Positions 45,621 to 59,952 of a DNA stretch of 64,000 nucleotides are shown piece by piece. Numbering within the stretch: the stretch's first letter is position 1; each line of letters starts with the position of its first letter. The stretch spans positions 2,976,001 through 3,040,000 of the forward strand of contig NC_019567.1 in assembly GCF_000317895.1 (NCBI RefSeq). The letters are read 5' to 3'. The stretch is from Bdellovibrio bacteriovorus str. Tiberius (GTDB lineage: Bacteria > Bdellovibrionota > Bdellovibrionia > Bdellovibrionales > Bdellovibrionaceae). The translations under genes and the position numbers were made by a program. The notes below the pieces were generated by a model, which made no database searches, had not been told where the DNA came from, and worked only from the letters and a program-made list of their open reading frames with translations.

Positions 45621-45650
45621 AAACAAGGCTCACATAGAGCCTTGTTTTTT
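45621..45650. terminator. bidirectional terminator containing a stop codon
   Basis: AACAAGGCTC/GAGCCTTGTT stem, T-run on the plus side, A-run for the minus side. The last six codons and the stop of the 282-residue gene lie in it. Confidence 0.82.
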
Positions 45651-46478
45651 AATAGACAAACTTCCGTTGAATGACGTTGTCGCCAAAGCATCGCGTTTCA
45701 AATCCTTGCCAGAACGTTCTTTAAAGCGGACTTCCACCACACAGAAGCGAGGGACTTCGTGGGCCACCTGATTCAGAGGCATTCTAATCTTTTGATAACC
45801 GATTTCCTTCGAGCTTCTTTCATCCACCCGCTTATAAACTGTCTCGGTACGGATGAAATCAGAATACAAGTCGCCATAATTAGGACTGGAGTTCGGCTGA
45901 CGAGGACTTCCGCTTTGCCCACGATATCTCAGATCGCAGGCATACTTGATTTCCACTGAATCCAAGGCGACCGCGTAAGCACTTCCCTGCAAAGTGAAAT
46001 CCAAACCGTAAGTCCCCAATGACTGATCAGTTCCTGAAGTCGCAAAAGGCCCTTTATAGCAGTAGGTAAAACCATACTCTGCGCCCAGAATCTCGCTTCC
46101 CAGTTGCACTTCCAGACTGTTCAGCTTGCCTCCGAATAAGTTTCCGTCATCCACAAACTGCTTCCACTGCGAAGTGCTGTGAATGGCTTGAGCCGCTCCG
46201 TCTGAATGAGTGGCCACTATCTGATTTCCTATCATTTCTTTGGAATAGCACTGACAGGGACCATCCGTTGGCCCGACGCGGGTCGGATCGCAGGATTCTC
46301 CGGTGCCCAGGTTCAGACAAATCTGCTCTGTGGATGACGAAGAGCTGCGAATTTTGGCATTGCAGGCATAAAGCTCCTCTCCCGTCGTCGGATTCAATGA
46401 CGAGCCCATGATACTGCCAGTACTGGCTCCGGAACTAAGCGAAAAAAGAAACAACAGAGCAAAAACAGAGTTCTTCAT
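45630..46478 (-). CDS. secreted cysteine-rich protein, last gene of the fibre operon
   Basis: 282 residues with signal peptide (cut near GASTGS, about residue 20). Cysteines in the pattern ACNAKI, ICLNLG, SCDPT, CQCYS are followed by a beta-rich region with LGSE, CYKG and FCVVEVRFKE. The same landmarks in the same order occur in the 426-residue protein two genes upstream, so the two are diverged paralogues. The start is four bases after the previous gene ends. Unknown family; likely extracellular or outer-membrane. Confidence 0.72.
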   Translation of the reverse strand: MKNSVFALLFLFSLSSGASTGSIMGSSLNPTTGEELYACNAKIRSSSSSTEQICLNLGTGESCDPTRVGPTDGPCQCYSKEMIGNQIVATHSDGAAQAIHSTSQWKQFVDDGNLFGGKLNSLEVQLGSEILGAEYGFTYCYKGPFATSGTDQSLGTYGLDFTLQGSAYAVALDSVEIKYACDLRYRGQSGSPRQPNSSPNYGDLYSDFIRTETVYKRVDERSSKEIGYQKIRMPLNQVAHEVPRFCVVEVRFKERSGKDLKRDALATTSFNGSLSIKKQGSM

Positions 46479-46482
46479 ACTT

Positions 46483-48075
46483 CTATCTTTCGCACTTCAA
46501 AGTGGCAAAACCGCTGGTTTTATTATCATAATTTCCGCCCAGAACACCTCGTTTGGAAATGGACAGGTTCAACAGTTTCTGCGCACCGGTTTCGGGATCT
46601 TTTTCCCCGACGACAAATTCCACAACGTACTTTTGATGAAACTTCTTGTTTCCGACCTTCAAGCAGGTGGTTTTGTCATCGCAGACACGGTCATAGTACG
46701 GAGGCCATATCTGGCTCTTAATAATGCCATCCAAGCCACGAACAATCTCTCCCAGGGATACGCCCTGATTGTGTCGTACCAAAGAGCCCACTCCACCGAA
46801 GGAAGGCAAAACCCCCAGATTACTCAAAGAGGAAATATTCGGGAAAATGTCGATTCCAACCTCTGCGTCTTCTGTCGCATACATATTCAGAAGCATTTGT
46901 CTGAAACCGCTCAGGAAGATAGCATAGTCATCTGTCGGATTCTGCATTGTAACGACAACTTTATAGCGCCCCCCTTTTACCAAAGGCCCTTCTGACAGTC
47001 TGAACTTCATTCCAGGCACAAGCCCCTGCCAGTTTGGCGGCACCAAGCCGCCATCCCACCATTCATCAATCAAAGTCTGTTTGGTTTTCCCAACCTGATA
47101 AAGCTCCACCTGACCGAAGAAAGGCTGGGTATAATTCGAGGCACTGGCGCACTCGTTCCCCACACATTTTTCAGGTGCGAAGTTGGAAACCAGGAACTTC
47201 AACTGCAATTCGGAGGTGTCGGACTGTTGTTTGATCTCAATATCAGAAATATCGGATTCGACGCTATAGTCTGTGACAAATCGCGGAGTCGTGGGACCGT
47301 AGTCCTCCGTTAACTTCAAAGTTTTCGAATCTGGTGCAATATTCAAATGAAGCAGGCGACTTCCGATATGAGTCAGGTCCTGACTGTTTCCGGTATCGTC
47401 CCCGGCAATCAAAGTATTTAATTTTGCATACATATCCTGGGGTTCGATCCCCAGTTCCTGCAAATACAACGGATCAAGACATTTGCCTTTGAAAACCGGT
47501 TGGATTGCGAATTTATTTCTGCCGCGAACCTTTAAGAAGCACATATCGCCAATCAAGGTCACTGCCCCGTCTTCTTCACGACGGATTTGGCAGAATTCCT
47601 GATTTTCTTTGGCAATGATAGGTTCACCACCGACATCAACTACCCGGACGTCGAAGCATGATCTGATAAACTTGTACTGACGCAGTAGACTGGCCGTAGC
47701 CCTGTCCTGCTTAAAATCTCCCAAGACCTGGGAGTTATTGATACTGCAATTTCTTGCCGCATGATCACCAAAGATACTGGTATTAATGCCCGTGTTGGTT
47801 GTATCCCAAAACGCCGAGCCCAAGGAAATCATTAAAAAACGGCCCGCATCCTTTTCACATTTATCCACCAGGGTCGATGGAATCAGCTGTCGGCCTGTAT
47901 AATCCCCCCAGCTTTGATTCGCCGGGGAGATTTGAATCTCGATCTTTTCATCAGTATCAGCCACGCATCCGCCGGATGCGTGAACTGATTCTGCCATAGT
48001 TAAAGATACAATCAGAAGGAGCAGACGTCCCAAGATTCGTAACTCATTTTTCATAGAACCACCAATTTTAGTCAT
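46483..48075 (-). CDS. secreted protein of unknown function in the fibre operon
   Basis: 530 residues from the ATG at 48075 (AAGGA site). Signal peptide ends near VHASGG (about residue 32). Numerous cysteines (about 15) suggest a disulfide-stabilised extracytoplasmic fold with mostly beta structure. No motif recognised. It sits 25 bp after the 426-residue gene and 4 bp before the 282-residue gene. Confidence 0.72.
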   Translation of the reverse strand: MTKIGGSMKNELRILGRLLLLIVSLTMAESVHASGGCVADTDEKIEIQISPANQSWGDYTGRQLIPSTLVDKCEKDAGRFLMISLGSAFWDTTNTGINTSIFGDHAARNCSINNSQVLGDFKQDRATASLLRQYKFIRSCFDVRVVDVGGEPIIAKENQEFCQIRREEDGAVTLIGDMCFLKVRGRNKFAIQPVFKGKCLDPLYLQELGIEPQDMYAKLNTLIAGDDTGNSQDLTHIGSRLLHLNIAPDSKTLKLTEDYGPTTPRFVTDYSVESDISDIEIKQQSDTSELQLKFLVSNFAPEKCVGNECASASNYTQPFFGQVELYQVGKTKQTLIDEWWDGGLVPPNWQGLVPGMKFRLSEGPLVKGGRYKVVVTMQNPTDDYAIFLSGFRQMLLNMYATEDAEVGIDIFPNISSLSNLGVLPSFGGVGSLVRHNQGVSLGEIVRGLDGIIKSQIWPPYYDRVCDDKTTCLKVGNKKFHQKYVVEFVVGEKDPETGAQKLLNLSISKRGVLGGNYDNKTSGFATLKCER

Positions 48076-48100
48076 ATCTGTTCCTTCTGATATCAATTAA

Positions 48101-49381
48101 CTATTTGCAGTTAGGGCAGTTTCCATCAAGATCTGCCATTTCGATTTTCGTGTGAGTGCAGATGTTTGCACCGTGTTTTTGCCATTTGCGCAGTTTAGGA
48201 TAGTGACCCAGACCGTCTTTTTCCTTGAAGATGTAGCGAACTTTACAGAATTTCGCTGCTGCACCTTTGTTGTACTTATCAAGATAGATCGGAGTGTTTT
48301 TATCGATCGTCTGCACGAAGTTCGCACCGCTGATCAGATCTTTGATATCACCAGCAAGATACTTGGTGTGATTGCTTACTGGATCGTCAATGTCAGTGAT
48401 GTCGTTGTCGAACTGAGGAGTGTTGCTTCCGTTTGGATGCTCATCAGTGTCGCTGCAGTTGCCGTTTTCACAGTTTTGAGTCTGAGAAGTACAGATCAAG
48501 TGTGCTTGAACTTCAAGGTCTGCGAAGTCGCTGTAACCTTTACCGTTGTACTTGTGACCGATGTCTGTCAAAGAGGCTTCAGCGATGACTTTGTAAGCCG
48601 CTTTGTAGTGGCTGTAGTCAATCTGAGAACCGCGGTAGCAGATATCCACGAAGTATGCCGCATTGTATGTTTCACTGCCCAGATTGAAGGACAATTTATC
48701 CAATACTCTGTCGAACGCATCAACTTCACCGAATAGTGTCGCGAAGTAAGGGCTTACACCGGAAACTTTGTCAGTGTGAGGATCTTGACGGTCTTCCCAC
48801 TTAGTCCAGCTTGCGTGAACGTAGTTACCGAATTTACGACCTTCTTGAGTGGAGCACACGCAAGTGTTGCCGTTGCCGCCACCGTTACCGCCACCTGGAT
48901 TGGAACAAGTTCTGTCCTGAGAATTGAACGTGTGACCAGATGTTTTACAGGAAACATCGCAATAAACGAATTTGCCAGGACCAGCCTGATCTTTTTCGTT
49001 ACCCAAAACGCCCGGAGGTACGTTGCTTGCGTGAGTCGGAGTGCTAACCCAGTTACGACCTGCAGCCTCACAGCTGGATTTCGTATTCAGTGGTGTATTG
49101 GACCACGTAGCCAGGTTCTGGATAAACTGCGGAGTTGGCTTAGAGCCGCCTTCACAATCCAAGCCATCACACTTAGGCGTACACGCCGTGTTCGTGCCTT
49201 CATAGTAACAGATCTTTTTATCGCCATAGGTGTCGCCTTTAGTCAGCAAACCCGCATTACAGGGATAGATGCTTGGACCCGAGCTGTTCACTCGGAAGCT
49301 ATAGTTGACCTGGATGGCGTTTGCCTGCATCGCCACCAAGGTGACGGCTGTAGTAGCCATCGCTTTTAACAAACGTTTCAT
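48101..49381 (-). CDS. secreted cysteine-rich protein, paralogue of the 282-residue protein
   Basis: 426 residues: signal peptide (cut after ANA, about residue 22), an N-terminal Cys-rich part (CNAG, ICYYEG, ACTPKCDG, CVCST) with an inserted Gly/Asn-rich loop (GGGNGGGNG), a central LGSETYN...CYRG region and FCKVRYIFKEKDG near the end, then a CPNC close to the stop. The landmarks match those of the last gene of the operon. GGAG ribosome site. Function unknown; secreted. Confidence 0.75.
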   Translation of the reverse strand: MKRLLKAMATTAVTLVAMQANAIQVNYSFRVNSSGPSIYPCNAGLLTKGDTYGDKKICYYEGTNTACTPKCDGLDCEGGSKPTPQFIQNLATWSNTPLNTKSSCEAAGRNWVSTPTHASNVPPGVLGNEKDQAGPGKFVYCDVSCKTSGHTFNSQDRTCSNPGGGNGGGNGNTCVCSTQEGRKFGNYVHASWTKWEDRQDPHTDKVSGVSPYFATLFGEVDAFDRVLDKLSFNLGSETYNAAYFVDICYRGSQIDYSHYKAAYKVIAEASLTDIGHKYNGKGYSDFADLEVQAHLICTSQTQNCENGNCSDTDEHPNGSNTPQFDNDITDIDDPVSNHTKYLAGDIKDLISGANFVQTIDKNTPIYLDKYNKGAAAKFCKVRYIFKEKDGLGHYPKLRKWQKHGANICTHTKIEMADLDGNCPNCK

Positions 49382-49417
49382 GTTGTCTCCTTCCCATTTA
49401 AGGGTGTTGTTGTAGTA

Positions 49418-49433
49418 AACTGATAAATCAGTT
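49418..49433. repeat. palindrome at an operon junction
   Basis: AACTGAT-AA-ATCAGTT overlaps the stop of the 200-residue gene, in the widest spacer of the operon. It could be an RNA processing hairpin or an operator. No T-run. Confidence 0.35.
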
Positions 49434-50030
49434 CATTTTAAAAATTAAAGGTGCACTTAAAGGACGCTGACCGAAGCCTGGCTGTCGAGGCTGAACCTCG
49501 AAGGCAGAAGTCTGGCCGACATTGTTGCGACAAAGCACATAGCTCAGTGCCATCGGCTGATGAACATCATCCAGTTTCACAGCCAGCAGAGTGTTTTCGC
49601 CGGTCTCGCCACAGAAAAAGCGAAGTTCCTTGGTAAAGGCTTCTCCGCCGACGGGGCTGTAATAGTTAAAGACGCTTTTCAGATCCAGCATCACGTACTT
49701 TTCAGTCCCCAGAAAGCGAATCAGATCCTTGCGGTCGTTCACTTCTCTGGAAATGGCATAGACTCTGGAAATCTCGGTGAAAAGCTGGCGCAGTAGTGGC
49801 GATGTTGTCCCCGCACAGTTACGGCAGTAAGGCTCGGGTCTTTGGCAGGCCGTCGCGTTCTGGCAAAGGCTTTGACAATCCCCTGATGATGCCGTGTCGC
49901 AAGTGACTTTGGTCACTTTTGCATACTGCCCGCCTGGCTGTTTGGCGTAAGTGCTTTCGACCAAAAACGCGTGGGCGGAAAATGATAGAAGTAAAATCAA
50001 TGTCGCAATGGTTCCAATCAACTTTTTCAC
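49428..50030 (-). CDS. secreted small protein in the fibre operon
   Basis: 200 residues with GTG start that shares one base with the stop of the previous gene (TAGTG). Signal peptide to about residue 21, a Cys cluster (TCDTASSGDCQSLCQ, then C-x5-C-x2-C), then a beta/helical part. No family recognised. Translational coupling ties it to the 914-residue protein. Confidence 0.7.
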   Translation of the reverse strand: MKKLIGTIATLILLLSFSAHAFLVESTYAKQPGGQYAKVTKVTCDTASSGDCQSLCQNATACQRPEPYCRNCAGTTSPLLRQLFTEISRVYAISREVNDRKDLIRFLGTEKYVMLDLKSVFNYYSPVGGEAFTKELRFFCGETGENTLLAVKLDDVHQPMALSYVLCRNNVGQTSAFEVQPRQPGFGQRPLSAPLIFKMN

Positions 50031-52774
50031 TAGAAGCCCCAGAAGTTATGTCCGATGGTTTGACGACAGTCTTTGCTCATGCCGTACATGCCCCCGAACT
50101 TTTCATAAGTTTTGAACTTCTTCCCATCTTCAGAGCAGCTGTACTTCACGCGCACTTTACCGTCGCAGTAGTCGGACTGAATGATCACGGCAGAAGACGG
50201 CGTGGTGTTGCCATTGGCATCTGTCAGCTCTTCAAGCTCCAGATGCTTCACTTTGTTGCCTGTGTATCTTTCGAAGTAATCAGCGGCCTTGGCGGCGCAG
50301 ACATTCTGATAACAACCCACACCAGCAGCCAATTGGTCCACACAGTGATCCGGGATCGTGCCGTACTTTTTATAGGTCTCGACCACTCTGTTCACATCCA
50401 CTTCCTGCAGACGAGGAATATTGACCTTGTCTTTTTTGGCAGTGATGTAGCGATGAATGCTGCGGAACAGGTAAACACCCAGTTTGATCGGATTCAAAGG
50501 CAGGCCGCCTGTTGACACTGCCGCCCCCCCGGCAACACCCACAAAATTGATGGAACAACCACCGCAATAGGACTTGCTTACGTGAGGGCTGGTCTGAAGA
50601 CTGCCATTGGATTCACCAATCACCGTCCCGTTGTCGCGGATCTTACAGTAGTTCACCGAGATCCCGTTAAAGGCATAGAAGCTGAAGTCTTTGGCACTGT
50701 TCGGAGCAATAGACACCGCACACGGAGCACCCAGCAATGGACCGAAGTCCGCCAAAAGAGCCACTTCCATTTTTTCTTTCTGAATCTTAGGGTCAAATTT
50801 TACAGCCCCGTTTTTGATCATCGCGTTCAGGCTTGTGACCTTGGGTGGCTTGAAGTCCACATCTATATATAGAGGCAAAGCATTCCAGCCAAACAAAGCC
50901 GTGCTGGCCAAATCAGCCATCAGACGCTTGTTCGCACGACGGGTCTGATACCAGGGATCATATACCTTACATGCTTTCAGATCGGCGTAAGGGTTGAAAA
51001 CGTCAGGCGTAGAAACCGTCGAATTGACCGGCAGGAACGCATCCGCGTACTTAGCGACAGCATAAAGATCTACCATGGACTTAATAAGACGACGTGTGCA
51101 ATCAATCGCAGAAGCACAGATGGAGTTCCCTGGATCGCTGACACGAGTGGCATCCCACACCAGCAACGGCGCCCCAAACTTCATCGGCTGAATATCAGCA
51201 GCAATCGTCGCCGGAGGCGCCACACCCAAAAGCTCACGCGCCCACGCATGGAAGCCGCTTCTGTTCACTGTGTATCCAGCCGCATTCCAGATCTTTTCAC
51301 GTTCCAGTGAATCACAGAATGCAACCACGGTTTCACTGACTTTATCAAAGTACCGGGTGGCATCTGCCAACTGAACTTGGGAACCTTGAAACGAACGCTG
51401 CATGACATCCAGCTGTTGAACCTTATCAATGCCAGTTTTCATAAAGTCCAGACGCTGGTCCCCTGCCAGACGTGCCTCAGTACACAGGTAGTAAAGTTCA
51501 TCACGGTGCTGGTTGGAATAGGTTTTGGCAAAAGCCAGTGGTTTTACAAACTCCCCCAGTTCAACTGGAGTCATAGCGCCGGCCACGATGTTCAGGAACT
51601 GGATGGCGCTTTGCACACGATTTTTCATCGATCCGCGGGCTGTCACGTAATTCTTGCGGAAGTTCTCGACCCAGTCCGAGGCATCTTCGTAGCTGCGGGT
51701 TCCCAGGAAGTCATCATTCACATCACGGGGACCACGATTCACAACATCGTCTTCAGGACCTTTCGGAACTTCTTTGCGATGCTCGGTTTCATTGCCGTCC
51801 GGACGCGCCAGTTCGCGAATGCTGTTCATAGAAAGAGTGGCGGCATCGCACTCGGGCTTTTCAATGCTTTTACAGCCGTTGGGAATCATCATAATGGATT
51901 CTTCAAGGGCGATGGAACGGAACATCTGACCGTACTCAGGCGCCACCTGAAGCGGGATATTGGAATATCTCCAGGCAAAAGAAAGATAGATTTTTACGCT
52001 GTTCCAGAAATCGAATCCGACAGAGCCGAATTCCACAGCACGAGGAATTTTTAAATCAAGCTGGATAATGGAATTACGCGAATCCAGGGTCGCATCAGCA
52101 CTTTCACAGTCCGTGATGTACTTGTCTTTAGTGATTGCCGCCTGGGCCACAGAAAGAAGGACTGACTTGTCCACCTCTACTGAATTCAACTGCTCTTGAA
52201 GGGCCGAGAACCTTTTTACATAGAAGCAGGCCACACGATCTGTCTTTTTCATGGACATAAAGTGGGTGCCATTGAACTTATCCAGACTTTCCCAGCGCAG
52301 TCCGGCCCCTTCCGAGTTATCCCAGAGTTTGGAAAGATAGCCGTTCAACTCAGGACAATAGGTCTTGTTCTGACATTTTTCAGCAATGGCATTATAGCCG
52401 GTCAATGCCGAAGTCTTCAGATTGGTCGGAAGAAGTGGAAGCTGTCCGGCCATCAGCTTGTTCATAATCACTTTGGTAAGACGGGTTACTGCAATACGAA
52501 ACTGCTGCATGCCCTCGGCGCTCATCGCTTCAGCATTGGAGCCGATATTTTTACCAAGGGAATAAACCATCTTTCCCGCATTGTATCCATCCACCACGAT
52601 AAATGCGGACTCGGTCGGAATCTCAGAGTCTACGGCGCATTGCGCACGATTTGTAATTCTCAATTTATTCAACTGAACCTGAGATGTGGAAGTCGTTTGT
52701 GCATCGGCACCCACCGCCATCATCCAGATCACTGTCATCAACACAATTTTGCCCATAGACCCTGCATTATTCAT
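50030..52774 (-). CDS. large secreted protein of unknown function in the fibre operon
   Basis: 914 residues with signal peptide (cut near ADAQT, about residue 26). The long helical middle (about 180-600) is followed by a Cys-containing region (PHVSKSYCGGCSI, about 750) that includes a hydrophobic Gly-rich stretch (INFVGVAGGAAV), and a C-terminal domain with several cysteines. It is the largest member of the six-gene operon. Size and lack of enzyme motifs suggest a scaffold, usher-like or receptor part; this is inference. AGAGG site before the ATG. Confidence 0.72.
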   Translation of the reverse strand: MNNAGSMGKIVLMTVIWMMAVGADAQTTSTSQVQLNKLRITNRAQCAVDSEIPTESAFIVVDGYNAGKMVYSLGKNIGSNAEAMSAEGMQQFRIAVTRLTKVIMNKLMAGQLPLLPTNLKTSALTGYNAIAEKCQNKTYCPELNGYLSKLWDNSEGAGLRWESLDKFNGTHFMSMKKTDRVACFYVKRFSALQEQLNSVEVDKSVLLSVAQAAITKDKYITDCESADATLDSRNSIIQLDLKIPRAVEFGSVGFDFWNSVKIYLSFAWRYSNIPLQVAPEYGQMFRSIALEESIMMIPNGCKSIEKPECDAATLSMNSIRELARPDGNETEHRKEVPKGPEDDVVNRGPRDVNDDFLGTRSYEDASDWVENFRKNYVTARGSMKNRVQSAIQFLNIVAGAMTPVELGEFVKPLAFAKTYSNQHRDELYYLCTEARLAGDQRLDFMKTGIDKVQQLDVMQRSFQGSQVQLADATRYFDKVSETVVAFCDSLEREKIWNAAGYTVNRSGFHAWARELLGVAPPATIAADIQPMKFGAPLLVWDATRVSDPGNSICASAIDCTRRLIKSMVDLYAVAKYADAFLPVNSTVSTPDVFNPYADLKACKVYDPWYQTRRANKRLMADLASTALFGWNALPLYIDVDFKPPKVTSLNAMIKNGAVKFDPKIQKEKMEVALLADFGPLLGAPCAVSIAPNSAKDFSFYAFNGISVNYCKIRDNGTVIGESNGSLQTSPHVSKSYCGGCSINFVGVAGGAAVSTGGLPLNPIKLGVYLFRSIHRYITAKKDKVNIPRLQEVDVNRVVETYKKYGTIPDHCVDQLAAGVGCYQNVCAAKAADYFERYTGNKVKHLELEELTDANGNTTPSSAVIIQSDYCDGKVRVKYSCSEDGKKFKTYEKFGGMYGMSKDCRQTIGHNFWGF

Positions 52775-52783
52775 TTAAAACCT

Positions 52784-53317
52784 CTAATTAAGACCGGTGC
52801 CGCAAGAGCTGACTTTGTTCAACATGGTTGTATAGAACAAAACCACTGTCTGATCCGCTGGAGAGAAGTTTCTCTTCACAGAGCCATCAGAGTTCACCAT
52901 GTTGTACAGGTACGTATTTACGAAGCGATAAACTGCAGGTGTGACCAGAAGATTGGAACGGCACTTGTAGTTTTTGTAGGTCACTGTGATGTTTGCATAG
53001 CCATTGCTGTTGTTGTTATTGCCGTTGTCATAGTCGCCAATGTAGATTGTATCCCCTTCGCCGCCGTTCGCCCGACCGTAGCCAACCTGGAACTGCACAG
53101 TCCATCCGGATCCACTGCTGTCCTGCCCGACGATTTTACAAAGATTGCCTGAACAGGCGATCGCCATTTCATTCTCAATTTTCTTCTGCAGTTCTGCTTC
53201 AGAGTATTGAGGAAGTGGACGTGGATCGAATTCTCCAGTGCCATCATCAAATTCATTCGCAGTCGCCTGCATCGTTGTCGCCAACAAAACCCCTGCAAGA
53301 AGCGCCTTGAGTTTCAT
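52784..53317 (-). CDS. secreted protein, first gene of the six-gene operon
   Basis: 177 residues: signal peptide (to about residue 20), an acidic linker, a Cys pair (ACSGNLCKI), a Gly/Asn-rich stretch (NGNNNNSNGYAN) and a C-terminal part with two more cysteines. It could be a small fibre or cap subunit. AAGGGAAG ribosome site; next gene follows after 9 bp. No family recognised. Confidence 0.72.
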   Translation of the reverse strand: MKLKALLAGVLLATTMQATANEFDDGTGEFDPRPLPQYSEAELQKKIENEMAIACSGNLCKIVGQDSSGSGWTVQFQVGYGRANGGEGDTIYIGDYDNGNNNNSNGYANITVTYKNYKCRSNLLVTPAVYRFVNTYLYNMVNSDGSVKRNFSPADQTVVLFYTTMLNKVSSCGTGLN

Positions 53318-53451: not shown

Positions 53452-53492
53452 AAAAAAAAGAAAAGGCCGCTGGTGTTCACCAACGGCCTTTT
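53452..53492 (-). terminator. intrinsic terminator of the collagen-like gene
   Basis: AAAAGGCCGTTGGTG pairs with CACC-AGCGGCCTTTT around a short loop; then TTCTTTTTTTT on the minus strand. It separates the fibre gene from the six-gene operon, which must have its own promoter in 53318-53451 or rely on read-through. Confidence 0.88.
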
Positions 53493-53517: not shown

Positions 53518-56439
53518 CTAGAAAGTGACTGGCATCATGTGCGGAATTTTTCCTGCATCGGAGTTTCCGATGATCATACCGCGCACTTTGGAGTGACGTG
53601 TAGCTGGCTGGAACGGAAGGCCTTTGTAGTTCGGGGATTGAACTGCAGGGACCCAGCGTCCGGAACCGTCCACCATCCATTCACGGAAGTACATGTTGAT
53701 GTGAGTACCTTCAACCAAGTAATCAATGGTGGTGCCCGCACCCGCAAGGGCCATCGCCGCGCGGAATGTGAACAGATTCTCTGCCATACCTTCACCGAAT
53801 GCGCCATAAGCGGCCGCAAACGCCTTAGCATCGGAGTTCATCGTTTTGTACATGGTTTTCAAAGCATAGTACATTTTGCTTGCAGCCTCGGCCGTTTTCT
53901 TGGTCGTGACGTTCACGCAAGAACCCGGAATACGAGATCCGCCATCCATCATGCACAGATCGTAAGGATCGTTGCGCTCGTTGAAGTAGGAGTAGATCTG
54001 ATCCGTGGACTTGTCGATGAAGGCATCCTGACTCATGGTCTGAGCCGCTCTCATCAGTCTCATGGTGTTTTCGTCACTGAAGTTCACGTTGAATTCAATG
54101 CCGGTATAACCCAGATCTGCATCAGGCACGCCCACCATCAGGGAATCCAGGCCGGTCTTTTTAACCAAAGCATAGATGCCGGATCTTAGACGCTTGCCGT
54201 TGGCGCTTTCATGCTTGAAGGCATAAGAATAAGTACCAAACATGCTTTCCATGCGTGCTTTGCTGTCCCAGTTCTCAACCGAGTATTTCGCTCCGTAGAA
54301 CATGAAGTCTTTTTCTTTGTGCTTGAACCAGAAGCGGCTGTCTTCGGAATCAGAATAGATACCGTAGTTCACAACTGCTGTATTGCGGTCCAGATGCATT
54401 TCAGAAGTGGTGTAAGAATTGATCTTACCTTTGCTGTACGTTTTGTCCCAAATGATCGGCAAAGCCAAAGATTTGCTGACAACACGGCCCGTCGCAACGG
54501 ATCTGAAGGTTTCAACTTTTACCACCGGTGCGCGCTCAACCAAGTTTCTTGGTTTGTCGGCTGACAGTGTTTCTGACGCCAGAACGTTACCACGGATCAC
54601 GTCTTCGTAAGCTTTGCGGCCAGTATCGGTCGTCAAATCAAACAAGAACGAGAACCCATCGTCTGAAGATCTGAACTCACTCAAGCTTAAAGTCAGGATG
54701 GATACGTTGGTGAACATCGAGAAGCTGTTCAGCTTACCTTTGGACATTTTTACGTAAGCACGCTCAGAGCCGACTTTTTCCACGTAAGTTTCCCAAGTAC
54801 CGTTCGCCAGTTTCGCCACCCCTGCACCGATTGGACCGAAGCCCGCGCCTGCAGAGAAGATGATTCCTCCGTGACCGATGTAGGTGATGCTGTCACCTGG
54901 ATCCCAAGTGTCCAGATCTGCTGCATCCTTAGGTACAGACCAGCGACCACCCATATTACGGGCTTTGTCCAGAGTGCTCACATAGCGAACAGACTCTGTC
55001 TCTTTGCCCATGATTGGCAGAACGCCGACATAACCCCAGAAGTGCTGACGCAAACCTGTCGCATTGTCGAACCAGAAACGCACCTGAGCACCCAGACCCA
55101 CTTCGATTGCGCCGTAGACAGTTTTTTGGAAACCATCACGGTAATCGCCATAGATCAATGTATCGGAAGTCGGACGGTAGTCATACTTCACGATGGATGT
55201 CGGCTGCACATTTCTGAAGTGCGGAGTCAGATTCACGATGTACTGACCATAATCGAAGCTCAGATGGAACAGAGGCTTCAATTTTGCTCTGAGTTTGTTT
55301 TTCTCTTCTTCTTTGAATCCAGTCGAGCTGGAGGACGTCGCTGTGGACTCTCCGGTCGTTGATGTCGAAGTGGAGGTTGAAGACGAGGAAGAACTGGATG
55401 ACGTTGTCACTTCACCTGTCGTGGACGTTGTCACAGAAGTCGACGTTGCCGTCGTTACTGTGGTCGCCGTATCAGGATTGTAAGTGGTGGCCGTCGAAGT
55501 TGGTCCATAAGTACTTGTGCTTGGACCATAAGTCGTTGCAGTCGTATAACCAGTGGACTGATGACCTGTTGTGTAGCCAGTGCTGTAACCCGTACTGTAA
55601 CCCGTGGAATAGCCAGTTGTGTAGCCGGTGCTGTATCCAGTTGTATAACCAGTGGAATACCCAGTCGTGTCACCTTTATGGCCGTTAGTGCCATAATTGC
55701 CCTTGTGACCATTGTCACCTTTATGACCGTTATCGCCTTTATGACCATTGTCTCCACGGTCCCCATTGTTACCGTAGTTGCCCTTACTGCCTTTATCGCC
55801 GTGATCACCGTTGTCGCCGTTGTTGCCATAATTGCCTTTAGAGCCTTTTTCACCACGGTCCCCGTTGTTACCGTAGTTGCCTTTACTGCCCTTATCGCCG
55901 TGATCACCATTGTCGCCGTTGTTGCCGTAATTGCCTTTAGAGCCTTTCTCACCACGGTCACCATTGTTGCCGTAATTGCCTTTATCACCATGGTCACCAT
56001 TATTACCATAGTTGCCTTTACTGCCCTTATCGCCGTGATCACCGTTGTTGCCGTAATTACCTTTATCACCATGGTCACCATTGTTACCATAGTTGCCTTT
56101 ATCGCCCTTGTTCCCAAGAATGCCGTGGTTTCCTAGAACACCATGATCACCGTTATCTCCGTGGTCACCATTGTTGCCATAGTTGCCTTTGCTACCTTTG
56201 TCACCATGGTCACCGTTGTTCCCATAGTTGCCCTTGTCCCCTTTGTTGCCGTTGCCGATGATCCCTTTGGTACCATTGCCCCCAGGCGTTGAATTCCAAT
56301 TTACGAATCCGCCTTGGCCTCCGGTTTGGATCAATTGAGTATTTTTCGTGACGGTTTCAGATGGTGCATTCGCAAAAGCGACGTTTGCAACCATTGTCAT
56401 TCCCGCCAGGAAAATCACCTTCCCTGACTTCCCACCCAT
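53518..56439 (-). CDS. collagen-like repeat surface fibre protein
   Basis: 973 residues. Signal peptide (cut near AFA-NA, about residue 24). Residues 64-258 are 65 uninterrupted Gly-X-Y triplets built from GNY, GNN, GDH, GDK, GSK and similar, with no proline. Residues 259-300 repeat Gly-Tyr-Ser/Thr-Thr; 300-374 are almost only Ser and Thr. A globular domain of about 600 residues follows, with aromatic and charged strands and few cysteines. Collagen-like triplets trimerise into rods in bacteria; the layout suggests a stalked trimeric fibre with a large tip domain. AAGGAG site. It belongs to no family I know outside the repeats. Confidence 0.85.
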   Translation of the reverse strand: MGGKSGKVIFLAGMTMVANVAFANAPSETVTKNTQLIQTGGQGGFVNWNSTPGGNGTKGIIGNGNKGDKGNYGNNGDHGDKGSKGNYGNNGDHGDNGDHGVLGNHGILGNKGDKGNYGNNGDHGDKGNYGNNGDHGDKGSKGNYGNNGDHGDKGNYGNNGDRGEKGSKGNYGNNGDNGDHGDKGSKGNYGNNGDRGEKGSKGNYGNNGDNGDHGDKGSKGNYGNNGDRGDNGHKGDNGHKGDNGHKGNYGTNGHKGDTTGYSTGYTTGYSTGYTTGYSTGYSTGYSTGYTTGHQSTGYTTATTYGPSTSTYGPTSTATTYNPDTATTVTTATSTSVTTSTTGEVTTSSSSSSSSTSTSTSTTGESTATSSSSTGFKEEEKNKLRAKLKPLFHLSFDYGQYIVNLTPHFRNVQPTSIVKYDYRPTSDTLIYGDYRDGFQKTVYGAIEVGLGAQVRFWFDNATGLRQHFWGYVGVLPIMGKETESVRYVSTLDKARNMGGRWSVPKDAADLDTWDPGDSITYIGHGGIIFSAGAGFGPIGAGVAKLANGTWETYVEKVGSERAYVKMSKGKLNSFSMFTNVSILTLSLSEFRSSDDGFSFLFDLTTDTGRKAYEDVIRGNVLASETLSADKPRNLVERAPVVKVETFRSVATGRVVSKSLALPIIWDKTYSKGKINSYTTSEMHLDRNTAVVNYGIYSDSEDSRFWFKHKEKDFMFYGAKYSVENWDSKARMESMFGTYSYAFKHESANGKRLRSGIYALVKKTGLDSLMVGVPDADLGYTGIEFNVNFSDENTMRLMRAAQTMSQDAFIDKSTDQIYSYFNERNDPYDLCMMDGGSRIPGSCVNVTTKKTAEAASKMYYALKTMYKTMNSDAKAFAAAYGAFGEGMAENLFTFRAAMALAGAGTTIDYLVEGTHINMYFREWMVDGSGRWVPAVQSPNYKGLPFQPATRHSKVRGMIIGNSDAGKIPHMMPVTF
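55318..55539 (-). repeat. Ser/Thr-rich low-complexity stalk
   Basis: Encodes residues 301-374 of the fibre protein: TYGPST-type units, then runs of Ser and Thr including eight consecutive serines. Probable flexible or glycosylated stalk. Confidence 0.75.
55540..55665 (-). repeat. 12-bp tandem repeats coding Gly-Tyr-Ser/Thr-Thr
   Basis: About nine tetrapeptide units of GYST or GYTT plus one GHQST variant, residues 259-300 of the fibre protein. In-frame gain or loss of units is possible. Confidence 0.85.
55666..56250 (-). repeat. collagen-like Gly-X-Y coding repeats
   Basis: 65 triplets, arranged in larger blocks of 15-24 residues (GNYGNNGDHGDKGSK type) that recur with small changes. The pattern shows expansion by block duplication. 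Confidence 0.92.
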
Positions 56440-56737: not shown

Positions 56738-57352
56738 ATGAAATTGAAGGAAGACCTGAAATTCATCTTCAAACAAGGAAAGAAGATTCTGATAATGAGC
56801 TTCTTCACGTTGAATGTCGGCATCATGATTGTCGATGGACTGCCCGATCAAAGCACACTCGGTGAGCGATTCATCAAAGCCGTGCGTCGCTATCAGGCCA
56901 TGGTGATGCTTTACCAGCCCTGGGCCATGTTTGCCCCAAACCCGATGAACACCAACGCCCATATCGAAGCTGACCTGATCTTTGAAGACGGTTCAACCGG
57001 CGTCTGGAAAATGCCTCGCCCGACAATCATGCAGGGACCGCGAAAAGTGCTGACCGGAGATCGCTATCGTCTGTTCGGTCAGGAAACCCTGCTGCCGAAA
57101 GAAAATGAACTGGTTTGGTTTGATGTGTCCCGATTTATCACCCGCGAAGTGATGGAAGCTGAAACACACGGAAAAAACCGAGTTCTGAAAGAAGTTGTCT
57201 TCAAAAGATATCAAAGCCGCGTGCGACCTCCGCCAGAGGCGCCGTTGATTCCTCACGGGACTATGAGCACCAAATATGACACTGAAACCTTGTTCGTCTA
57301 TAAACCGACCTTCGAAAGGATTCGCCATGAAGCTAAAAACGATCTTCAATAA
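56738..57352 (+). CDS. QPWxMFAPNP-motif membrane protein, HTTM partner (copy 1)
   Basis: 204 residues: one N-terminal membrane helix (about residues 20-40), then an extracytoplasmic domain that opens with QPWAMFAPNP and ends IPHGTMSTKYD. The same landmarks are in the minus-strand copy. Proteins with this motif (DUF5819-like by my recollection) often adjoin HTTM genes. It overlaps the HTTM gene by 26 bp. AAGGA site. Function unknown. Confidence 0.75.
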   Translation: MKLKEDLKFIFKQGKKILIMSFFTLNVGIMIVDGLPDQSTLGERFIKAVRRYQAMVMLYQPWAMFAPNPMNTNAHIEADLIFEDGSTGVWKMPRPTIMQGPRKVLTGDRYRLFGQETLLPKENELVWFDVSRFITREVMEAETHGKNRVLKEVVFKRYQSRVRPPPEAPLIPHGTMSTKYDTETLFVYKPTFERIRHEAKNDLQ

Positions 57353-58271
57353 TTTCGAAGAATTTTTGTTCAAACCCCAGCCTGTCTATAGTGTTGCCCT
57401 GATGCGAATCGGCCTGGGTCTGATCTTATTGTTCAACTGGCTTATGCTTTATGCGGATCTGGATATCCTTTTCGGCCCCGATGGGATGGTTTCACTGCAG
57501 ACCGCTCAACAATACGGAAATCCCTTCCGCTATTCTTTATTTGATTATATGCCGAACACGTCGAAGGTGACTCACACCCTGGCCTTCATCAATCTGCTGG
57601 CCGTTCTGGCCATGACGTTTGGTGCCTGGACCCGCACCGCCATCTTTGTTGCCTTTGTGACTTTGATTTCATTTCACCACCGCAATGGCTTTGTCATGAA
57701 CAGCGCCGACTCGGTTTTAAGAAACTTTCTGTTTCTGCTGATGTTCACCCCCTGCGGCGATGCCTTCGCTATTGACCGCTGGCGTTTGCGCCTAAAAGGT
57801 CAGGCCCCTGAGGTGCCTGCAGAAAAAGCTCCTTGGGCCCTGCGCATGATCCAAATCCAATTCTGCGTTATCTATCTGGCCACGGTGATGTTCAAAATTA
57901 AAGGCGATCGGTGGGTCGACGGCACGGCCGTATATATCGCCACCCGACTGGATGACTTTGTCCGCTTTGAACTTCCACTGCTGAACAATATGATCTTTAT
58001 CAAATACCTGACCTGGTCCACGCTGCTGGTGGAATTTGCCTTGGGAACTTTGGTGTGGATCAAAGACCTTCGTTACTGGATTCTGCTGGCCGGAGTCGGA
58101 TTGCATCTGGGAATTGAGTACACCATGTCGATCCCCGTCTTTGAATGGGCGATGATTGTGGTGATGGTCAGCATGGTGGATTCACGGGATATCGAGCGCT
58201 GGATGGAAAAACTTCGCAAGTACCGCCAGCAAGCCCGCACGGCACAGACTCCCCAACCACAAACCACATAA
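57327..58271 (+). CDS. HTTM (gamma-carboxylase-like) membrane protein (copy 1)
   Basis: 314 residues with about seven membrane helices and HTTM landmarks: FKPQPVYSVALMRIGLGL at the start, HHRNGFVMNSAD and FTPCGDAFAIDRW, then QIQFCVIYLATVMFKIKGDRW. The domain is shared with vitamin K-dependent gamma-glutamyl carboxylase; bacterial members have no proven reaction. The ATG at 57327 lies inside the end of the partner gene. A close paralogue is encoded convergently. Confidence 0.85.
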   Translation: MKLKTIFNNFEEFLFKPQPVYSVALMRIGLGLILLFNWLMLYADLDILFGPDGMVSLQTAQQYGNPFRYSLFDYMPNTSKVTHTLAFINLLAVLAMTFGAWTRTAIFVAFVTLISFHHRNGFVMNSADSVLRNFLFLLMFTPCGDAFAIDRWRLRLKGQAPEVPAEKAPWALRMIQIQFCVIYLATVMFKIKGDRWVDGTAVYIATRLDDFVRFELPLLNNMIFIKYLTWSTLLVEFALGTLVWIKDLRYWILLAGVGLHLGIEYTMSIPVFEWAMIVVMVSMVDSRDIERWMEKLRKYRQQARTAQTPQPQTT

Positions 58272-58314: not shown

Positions 58315-59268
58315 TTATTTGGATTTAACCAGGATCAGCGGTCTCCAGGCCAGAATGCTTGAAAACAGTCTGCCCTCTTTCGCCAGGGTCAGCCAGTCTT
58401 TCAGATCTTTTGGGTCCACCATGCAGATCATCGTGATAATCATGATCCATTCAAACATCGGGATATTCATCGAAAGCTCAATCCCCAGATGCAGTCCAAT
58501 CCCGGCCAGAATCACCCAGTACCGCAGCTCGCGAATCCAGATCAGCGTCCCCAAGGCAAACTCCACCAGCAGCGTGGACCAGGTCAGGAACTTGATCACC
58601 ACAAGACTGTTCAAAAGCCCCAGCGGCATTCGGACAAACTCATCAAGGCGTGTGGCGACATACACCGCTGTACCATCCGCCCATAAGGGCCCCTTCATCT
58701 TGAACATCACCGTGGCGATATAAATGACGCTGAATTGAATCTGCATCAACCGCAGCCCCCAGGGGGCCTTTTCCAAAGGCTCTGCCGGGGCCATCCCCTT
58801 GCGCACCTGCCACCAACGATCCAAGGACAGCCAGTCCCCACACGGAGTCAGGAACAACAAAAACAGGAAATTACGAATCACGATATCTGAACTGTTCAAA
58901 ACAAAGACGTTGCGGTTATGAAACGAGATCAGGGTGAAAAACGCCAAAGCAATCGAGGTGCGGGTGAAAACTCCGAACAACACCCCTATCACCGCCCCCA
59001 GATGAACCAAGGCAACCAATGCCGGCACACGTGGGTCTGGCGGAAGCAGATCAAACAGACTAAAACGGAACGCCCCTGCCATCTTCAAAGAGCTTTCCAA
59101 AGAGAAAATCCCCTCGACTCCCCAGAAGGTGTCCAGATGACTCCACACCATAAACCAATTAATCAGCAGCACCACCCCGAATAAAACCCGCAACAAAGCC
59201 ACGGTATGCACCGGCTGGGGCTTAAAGAAAAAATCATTCAAACCATTAGTGAGCGTTGTTAGCTTCAT
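58315..59268 (-). CDS. HTTM (gamma-carboxylase-like) membrane protein (copy 2)
   Basis: 317 residues, clear paralogue of copy 1: FFFKPQPVHTVALLRVLFG, HNRNVFVLNSSD, LTPCGDWLSLDRW, QIQFSVIYIATVMFKMKGPLW. About seven membrane helices. The ATG at 59268 overlaps the end of its partner gene by 23 bp, just as in copy 1. The DNA of the two copies is similar enough in places (for example the segment coding LTWSTLLVEFALGTL) to act as an inverted repeat. Confidence 0.85.
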   Translation of the reverse strand: MKLTTLTNGLNDFFFKPQPVHTVALLRVLFGVVLLINWFMVWSHLDTFWGVEGIFSLESSLKMAGAFRFSLFDLLPPDPRVPALVALVHLGAVIGVLFGVFTRTSIALAFFTLISFHNRNVFVLNSSDIVIRNFLFLLFLTPCGDWLSLDRWWQVRKGMAPAEPLEKAPWGLRLMQIQFSVIYIATVMFKMKGPLWADGTAVYVATRLDEFVRMPLGLLNSLVVIKFLTWSTLLVEFALGTLIWIRELRYWVILAGIGLHLGIELSMNIPMFEWIMIITMICMVDPKDLKDWLTLAKEGRLFSSILAWRPLILVKSK

Positions 59269-59821
59269 AACGAGGCCCTCCAGTCGGCTTAAAGTGGAAA
59301 ACACTTTCGCTGTTATAATCCTTGCTCATCTGACCATGAGGTATGAACACCTGGGTCGGCGGTTGAACAGTGCTGGTATGACGATAGAAATAAAGCTGTT
59401 CAAATTCACGCTTGCACCCGAACTGTTCCAGCTTAGCCACCTCGCGCGCCACATAGCGGGAAAGATCAAACCACAGCTCTGACTTTTCCATCGGCAACAG
59501 ATTGTCCTGCTGGTACTTGCGATAACGTTCACCGGCCGTGAAACGATCCCAGCCATCCAGCTGTGACGCCCGCGGGAATGTCCATTGTTCTGTCGAGCCA
59601 TCTTTGAATGTGATCGTGGCCGTTAGATACGAGTTCACTGAGGCTGGATTGGGAGCAAACATGCTCCAGGGTTGATCCAACCCAAAGAAAACCTGATACG
59701 GAGAAAGAGCCTGCAGAATGCGGTCACCGACTGCACTCCGGTCTGGCAATGCCGCCGTGACCATCATCACGATGTGACCAGTAATAAAGGCTGAAATCAG
59801 AACCTTCTTGAGTGCCGCCAT
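59246..59821 (-). CDS. QPWxMFAPNP-motif membrane protein, HTTM partner (copy 2)
   Basis: 191 residues from the ATG at 59821 (GGGGG site six bases upstream). N-terminal membrane helix, then QPWSMFAPNP, FKDGST, WFDLSRYVAREV and FIPHGQMSKDYNSE, each with a counterpart in copy 1. An exported soluble domain anchored by one helix is predicted. Overlaps the HTTM gene. Confidence 0.75.
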   Translation of the reverse strand: MAALKKVLISAFITGHIVMMVTAALPDRSAVGDRILQALSPYQVFFGLDQPWSMFAPNPASVNSYLTATITFKDGSTEQWTFPRASQLDGWDRFTAGERYRKYQQDNLLPMEKSELWFDLSRYVAREVAKLEQFGCKREFEQLYFYRHTSTVQPPTQVFIPHGQMSKDYNSESVFHFKPTGGPRYEANNAH

Positions 59822-59952
59822 GGCGAACCCCCTGTTGTTGTTGACCAACATCAGGGTTTATCCGAGCCGCCCCGCCTGACACAACAGCATTCAAGCGCAT
59901 CTAAATTAAGAATTCATCAGCTAGATTTCAGCCCTTTAAGACAAGACAAAAA

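Follow-up and report, generated by a model that had tools for sequence, protein, structure and literature searches.

The gene at positions 53518–56439 (minus strand) of the window, the 64,000-nucleotide stretch of the Bdellovibrio bacteriovorus str. Tiberius genome that we analysed, encodes a 973-residue protein in which a proline-free collagen-like repeat precedes a large conserved C-terminal domain. The domain is kept among relatives and the repeat changes quickly; structure models predict that the domain folds as an outer-membrane barrel. We propose, with a probability of about 0.5, that the protein is an outer-membrane barrel protein whose N-terminal repeat would be shown outside the cell, in the manner of an autotransporter passenger.

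Gene anatomy and the Gly-X-Y stalk

The reading frame starts with an ATG at 56439, and its parts, all on the minus strand, follow each other as the preliminary description had laid them out, coordinates included. The signal peptide (residues 1–23, MGGKSGKVIFLAGMTMVANVAFA; 56371–56439), recognised by inspection from its n-region, h-region and AFA c-region, has a similar counterpart in most complete orthologues and supplies the export signal expected of an outer-membrane protein. Sequence comparison delimits an N-terminal segment (residues 24–63; 56251–56370) with a GGxGGF(V/I)N motif that is common to several members of the genus despite their differing repeats. It is followed by the Gly-X-Y triplets (residues 64–258; 55666–56250), a Gly-Tyr-Ser/Thr-Thr repeat (GYST/GYTT, residues 259–302; 55534–55665), a Ser/Thr-rich linker (residues 303–374; 55318–55533) and the C-terminal domain of about 599 residues (residues 375–973; 53521–55317). 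Just past the stop lies a hairpin of 14 pairs with a T-rich tail (53461–53492, minus strand) that resembles an intrinsic terminator, found in a scan in which such sites were overall no commoner than in shuffled sequence. Because the domain and the layout are kept in orthologues, and because this hairpin stands just past the stop, we take the reading frame to be real. The host genome, a single contig of 3,988,594 bases, holds one copy of the C-terminal domain.

A role in a conserved operon was considered and dropped; the gene was handled as its own unit because its neighbours are inconstant and the terminator-like hairpin lies in between. The order of the downstream genes at 52784–53317 and 50030–52774 is kept in three close relatives, and in other relatives these genes were not found adjoining the fibre gene. 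They fall within a group of six tightly packed genes (45630–53317, minus strand) with apparently exported products of 282, 537, 426, 200, 914 and 177 residues, several of them cysteine-rich, which gave no convincing match in Pfam or NCBIfam and whose order is conserved in close relatives. The genes at 46483–49381 (minus strand) are 43–60% identical in one relative (G003), in which the fibre domain is 98% identical, and 97–98% identical in another (G006), a pattern suggestive of allelic replacement in this downstream region. On its other side, the fibre gene is adjoined by two convergent paralogous pairs, 56738–57352 and 57276–58271 on the plus strand and 58315–59304 and 59246–59851 on the minus strand. 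Each consists of a small protein, one of them weakly like DUF5819, and an HTTM protein with a weak, sub-cut-off resemblance to SdpB (TIGR04033), so that the pairs look like a duplicated SdpA/SdpB-type pair.

By sequence, the protein is collagen-like. The triplet scan found a longest unbroken Gly-X-Y run of exactly 65 triplets with no proline at all, and Pfam Collagen (PF01391) matches this long uninterrupted run far above chance (E 4e-29; 100.6 bits against a family cut-off of 27.2). Asp (26) and Asn (24) dominate the X position, followed by Ser (6) and His (4), and the Y position is mostly Lys (22), Asn (17), Tyr (11) and His (9). Elsewhere the host genome encodes another glycine-rich protein (L006, C1:1620496-1620639; 415 residues), part of which is Gly-X-Y and which has an apparent signal peptide. 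Our literature search turned up no publication about collagen-like proteins in Bdellovibrio.

A triple helix, a polyglycine-II-like bundle and a disordered brush are all candidates for the form of the stalk. The view that no collagen helix forms, that the segment is a brush or a bundle and that the triplets are a by-product of short DNA repeats, is compatible with every reading of the domain considered below, and we put it at a little under even odds. Asn, Tyr and His, all frequent here in the Y position, are poor Y residues in host-guest collagen peptides. The stalk is encoded by diverged, tandemly repeated DNA whose copies step by multiples of 9 bases, and orthologues put non-triplet repeats in place of the triplets; both observations agree with a brush or bundle. 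Against it, the 65 unbroken triplets here and the 112 in one orthologue (L054) hint that selection acts on the three-residue frame, and a proline-free (Gly-Ala-Ser)n segment of variable length among isolates, that of Bucl8 from Burkholderia, adopts a triple-helical fold (PMC7682875). Bacterial triple helices that lack proline are thus not new. Nor is the lack of proline the oddity for which it was first taken: among the relatives' Gly-X-Y runs of at least 5 triplets nearly all are proline-free, the exceptions being one short run (L028) and one at the end of a partial contig (L092), and in this comparison a proline-free stalk is typical of its family.

A conserved domain behind a changing repeat

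We compared the protein with its orthologues in two close relatives and found that its parts differ widely in conservation. The C-terminal domain is 98% identical and the Ser/Thr linker 92–95%, and the triplet cassette reaches 57–58% over aligned positions, or 44–46% of the longer cassette, its length being 199 residues here versus 159 and 257 in the two relatives. In other orthologues of the genus the same place is taken by GNN, GVAGNQ (112 triplets), DTGHH or SNGN repeats or by Asp/His stretches. Across the wider family the domain is preceded by Gly/Ser, Pro/Thr or DTGGG repeats, by Pentapeptide_2 arrays (E down to 1e-140) or only by a signal peptide, and the repeats ahead of it reach about 1200 residues. 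In other Bdellovibrionota families (L082, L083, L084, L089 and L098), XNXGX pentapeptide arrays (Pentapeptide_2) precede the domain in frames of up to 1715 residues. A second subfamily of the genus (L044–L049; about 950–984 residues) has an N-terminal part of the VPVTTTT or EETRTETHDEERTGTR type and no glycine repeats. As judged from these alignments, the domain is the conserved part of the protein and the repeat is the part that has been replaced repeatedly by unrelated ones.

The domain is carried by 29 of the 66 genomes in the family, 33 of the 141 in the order and 87 of the 291 sampled Bdellovibrionota genomes, some of these being short partial matches, and several relatives have two or more copies. 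Named relatives found belong to Bdellovibrio and the Pseudobdellovibrionaceae, the closest being Bdellovibrio bacteriovorus strain kdesi, whose domain is 87% identical. Two cysteines, which bound a segment of residues 829–841 (53917–53955, minus strand), are invariant in all 62 family members aligned, as are several glycines, one proline and one phenylalanine. The two cysteines are likely to form a disulfide, and their invariance fits an exported fold.

In complete genomes of two relatives the orthologue appears in two far-apart halves that break inside the GNN repeat (L059/L105 in G009; L015/L106 in G021). Phase variation or rearrangement was considered for these genes and set aside as less likely, since the breaks run on into unrelated sequence; the split orthologues probably reflect misassembly at the repeat.

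As first described, the domain is not recognised by sequence: HMM searches with residues 375–973 gave nothing in Pfam or NCBIfam, and searches of PDB sequences with the single sequence and a profile found no match. Weak Pfam rows on the domain, such as RRM_10, fall below cut-off and were read as chance, and the tail-fibre hits in PHROG, which fall mostly on the repeat and linker, were put down to composition.

A predicted outer-membrane barrel and its proposed passenger

We modelled the domain with AlphaFold2 from 42 family sequences (pLDDT 83.3, pTM 0.82) and, from an alignment of 55, a stalkless homologue that is 27% identical to it (pLDDT 89.0, pTM 0.85). Both monomer predictions contain the same elements; they share alignment rows and are thus not fully independent. 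The model of the window domain predicts about 13–15 long antiparallel strands, 14 main ones and a short 15th, with a helical insertion of about 116 residues before strand 14. The last 50 or so residues are of low confidence, and the final strand is not C-terminal, unlike in classical barrels.

The best solved match of both models is CymA (Z 15.0 over 250 residues at 5.2 Å for the window domain; Z 15.3 over 272 residues at 6.0 Å for the homologue), and OmpG (Z 13.7 and 13.9) and the autotransporter barrels of EspP, NalP and Hbp (Z about 12–13) also match. These matches head the list of the second of two structural aligners, nearly all of whose listed rows are membrane barrels. Foldseek returned no PDB match at E <= 0.001 for either model and its TM-scores were low; a single BFVD match to a TonB-dependent receptor (E 1.1e-4, TM 0.17) was set aside as not meaningful alone. 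Because the best solved matches of both models are outer-membrane barrels, the domain is probably a membrane anchor and not the tip of a fibre, as the preliminary description had it. That description had named the prediction of a well-known non-fibre fold as an outcome that would speak against it, and at the level of models this is what was obtained. Of its picture of a surface fibre, an exported protein with an elongated repeat segment is supported; the C-terminal residues are modelled as a barrel.

The connections between strands are asymmetric, as in outer-membrane barrels. In the model of the window domain the loops from S1–2 and S3–4 onwards measure 33, 29, 3, 37, 4, 5 and 116 residues and the opposite turns 8, 2, 2, 3, 2, 27 and 4. 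Over both models, loops total 217–227 residues on one side versus 48–56 on the other (rank test on 13 gaps, p about 0.02, uncorrected), both chain ends lie on the short-turn side, and the one exception is the S12–S13 connection of 27–32 residues. Alternating hydrophobicity averages 1.87 hits per 100 residues in the first 400 residues of the domains, 3.18 in OMP_b-brl proteins of the same genome and 1.62 in other proteins of the window. These values do not set the domain apart from ordinary proteins, and the test does not distinguish a face turned to the membrane from one turned to the core of a soluble sheet. The family profile shows a clearly hydrophobic outer face for only about 8 of the 14 strands, at heights that do not line up into a single belt. 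Because the hydrophobicity test gave no confirmation, we treat membrane insertion as a prediction. No Pfam autotransporter or porin family matched the protein or 42 family members, PF03797 matched neither these nor anything in the whole genome, and the predicted secondary structure has no helix through the barrel before strand 1.

In the reading that we prefer, the C-terminal domain would fold, after Sec export, as a barrel of about 14 strands in the outer membrane with its two ends on the short-turn, periplasmic side. The Gly-X-Y, Gly-Tyr-Thr and Ser/Thr segment would be carried outside like an autotransporter passenger and displayed as a thin polar fibre or brush. Selection would keep the barrel, and the passenger, acting as a spacer or contact surface, would evolve fast and allow its sequence to be exchanged. 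A role in prey contact would be conjecture, given that relatives pair the domain with quite different repeats or with none.

The same barrel could instead keep the repeat on the periplasmic side, where it would act under the outer membrane as a tether or spacer, either disordered or fibrous. The position of the barrel's N-terminus on the short-turn side and the lack of a lumen helix in the predicted secondary structure both suit this arrangement, as does the existence of stalkless members, for which export through the barrel is not required. We nevertheless consider it unlikely: Ser/Thr-rich, quickly changing repeats of up to about 1200 residues are more usual on surfaces, and Pfam recognised no peptidoglycan-binding domain in the protein. 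Least probable of all is the original proposal of a water-soluble tip, perhaps trimeric, that touches prey; the order of stalk and domain, the weak membrane-type hydrophobicity pattern and the conserved helical, cysteine-bearing part would fit it, but the fold prediction and the highest-ranking structural hits both point to membrane barrels, nothing else in the sequence looks like a membrane anchor, the signal peptide having an ordinary AFA site at its end, and a conserved domain with a variable repeat is the opposite of what a prey-specific tip would lead one to expect.

If display through the barrel is correct, the domain, present in about a third of the sampled Bdellovibrionota genomes, would serve predatory bacteria and their relatives as a platform for surface display. 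It would also constitute a natural experiment in which one barrel is combined with many unrelated repeat polymers, and the long proline-free collagen-like stretches among the passengers are of interest for biomaterials. The predator's variable surface would thereby gain a concrete candidate that can be put to the test. More tentatively, and with the odds somewhat against it, we suggest that these proteins are a class of their own among surface proteins, one whose members display themselves and have so far been met in Bdellovibrionota. Their barrel of about 14 strands, marked by a helical insertion that bears cysteines, would both export and anchor fibres made of interchangeable repeats (collagen-like, GNN, pentapeptide or Pro/Thr), and the surface coat would change by passenger exchange while the barrel is kept.

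Comparison with known systems

CymA and OmpG are 14-stranded monomeric porins; the domain is 3–8% identical to them, and they have neither a repeat passenger nor a large helical insertion. The Bdellovibrio MAT fibres come from the same genus and are likewise elongated surface proteins of about 1000 residues, but they are phage-tail-fibre-like trimers with adhesive C-terminal regions (PMC10769870). In a comparison that covered Pfam and PHROG, no such domain was recognised in our protein, and Pfam found no S74 chaperone domain in it.

Bucl8, like our protein, joins an outer-membrane barrel (here predicted) to a collagen-like segment that lacks proline and varies in length from strain to strain; in Bucl8 this segment extends outside the barrel (PMC7682875). 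However, Bucl8 is an efflux component of the TolC type, and its collagen part follows the barrel. In our protein the repeat comes first, the predicted barrel represents a different family that lacks annotation, and the neighbouring genes that we examined included none recognised as efflux genes.

In order of parts the protein resembles autotransporters. The trimeric VtaA autotransporters of Haemophilus parasuis carry collagen-like repeats in the passenger (PMC6755704), N-terminal to a C-terminal barrel as predicted here. Each VtaA chain contributes a short anchor segment, and three such segments build one barrel; in place of the short four-stranded YadA-type anchor per chain that defines type Vc, for which Pfam gave no match, our domain has about 600 residues and some 14 predicted strands per chain. 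The classical type Va autotransporters EspP, NalP and Hbp share the signal peptide, the N-terminal passenger and the C-terminal barrel, the last being a prediction here; the PF03797 translocator that marks the type is absent from our protein. Their barrels have 12 strands and end at the C-terminus, in contrast to the 14–15 strands and the 116-residue helical, cysteine-bearing insertion predicted here. For Bdellovibrio, a TamAB-like system with a possible role at the invasive pole, in handling outer-membrane proteins or autotransporters, has been proposed (PMC3983030), and to link it with this protein would be speculation. By family models, the protein is neither a classical nor a trimeric autotransporter; it may nonetheless work like one.
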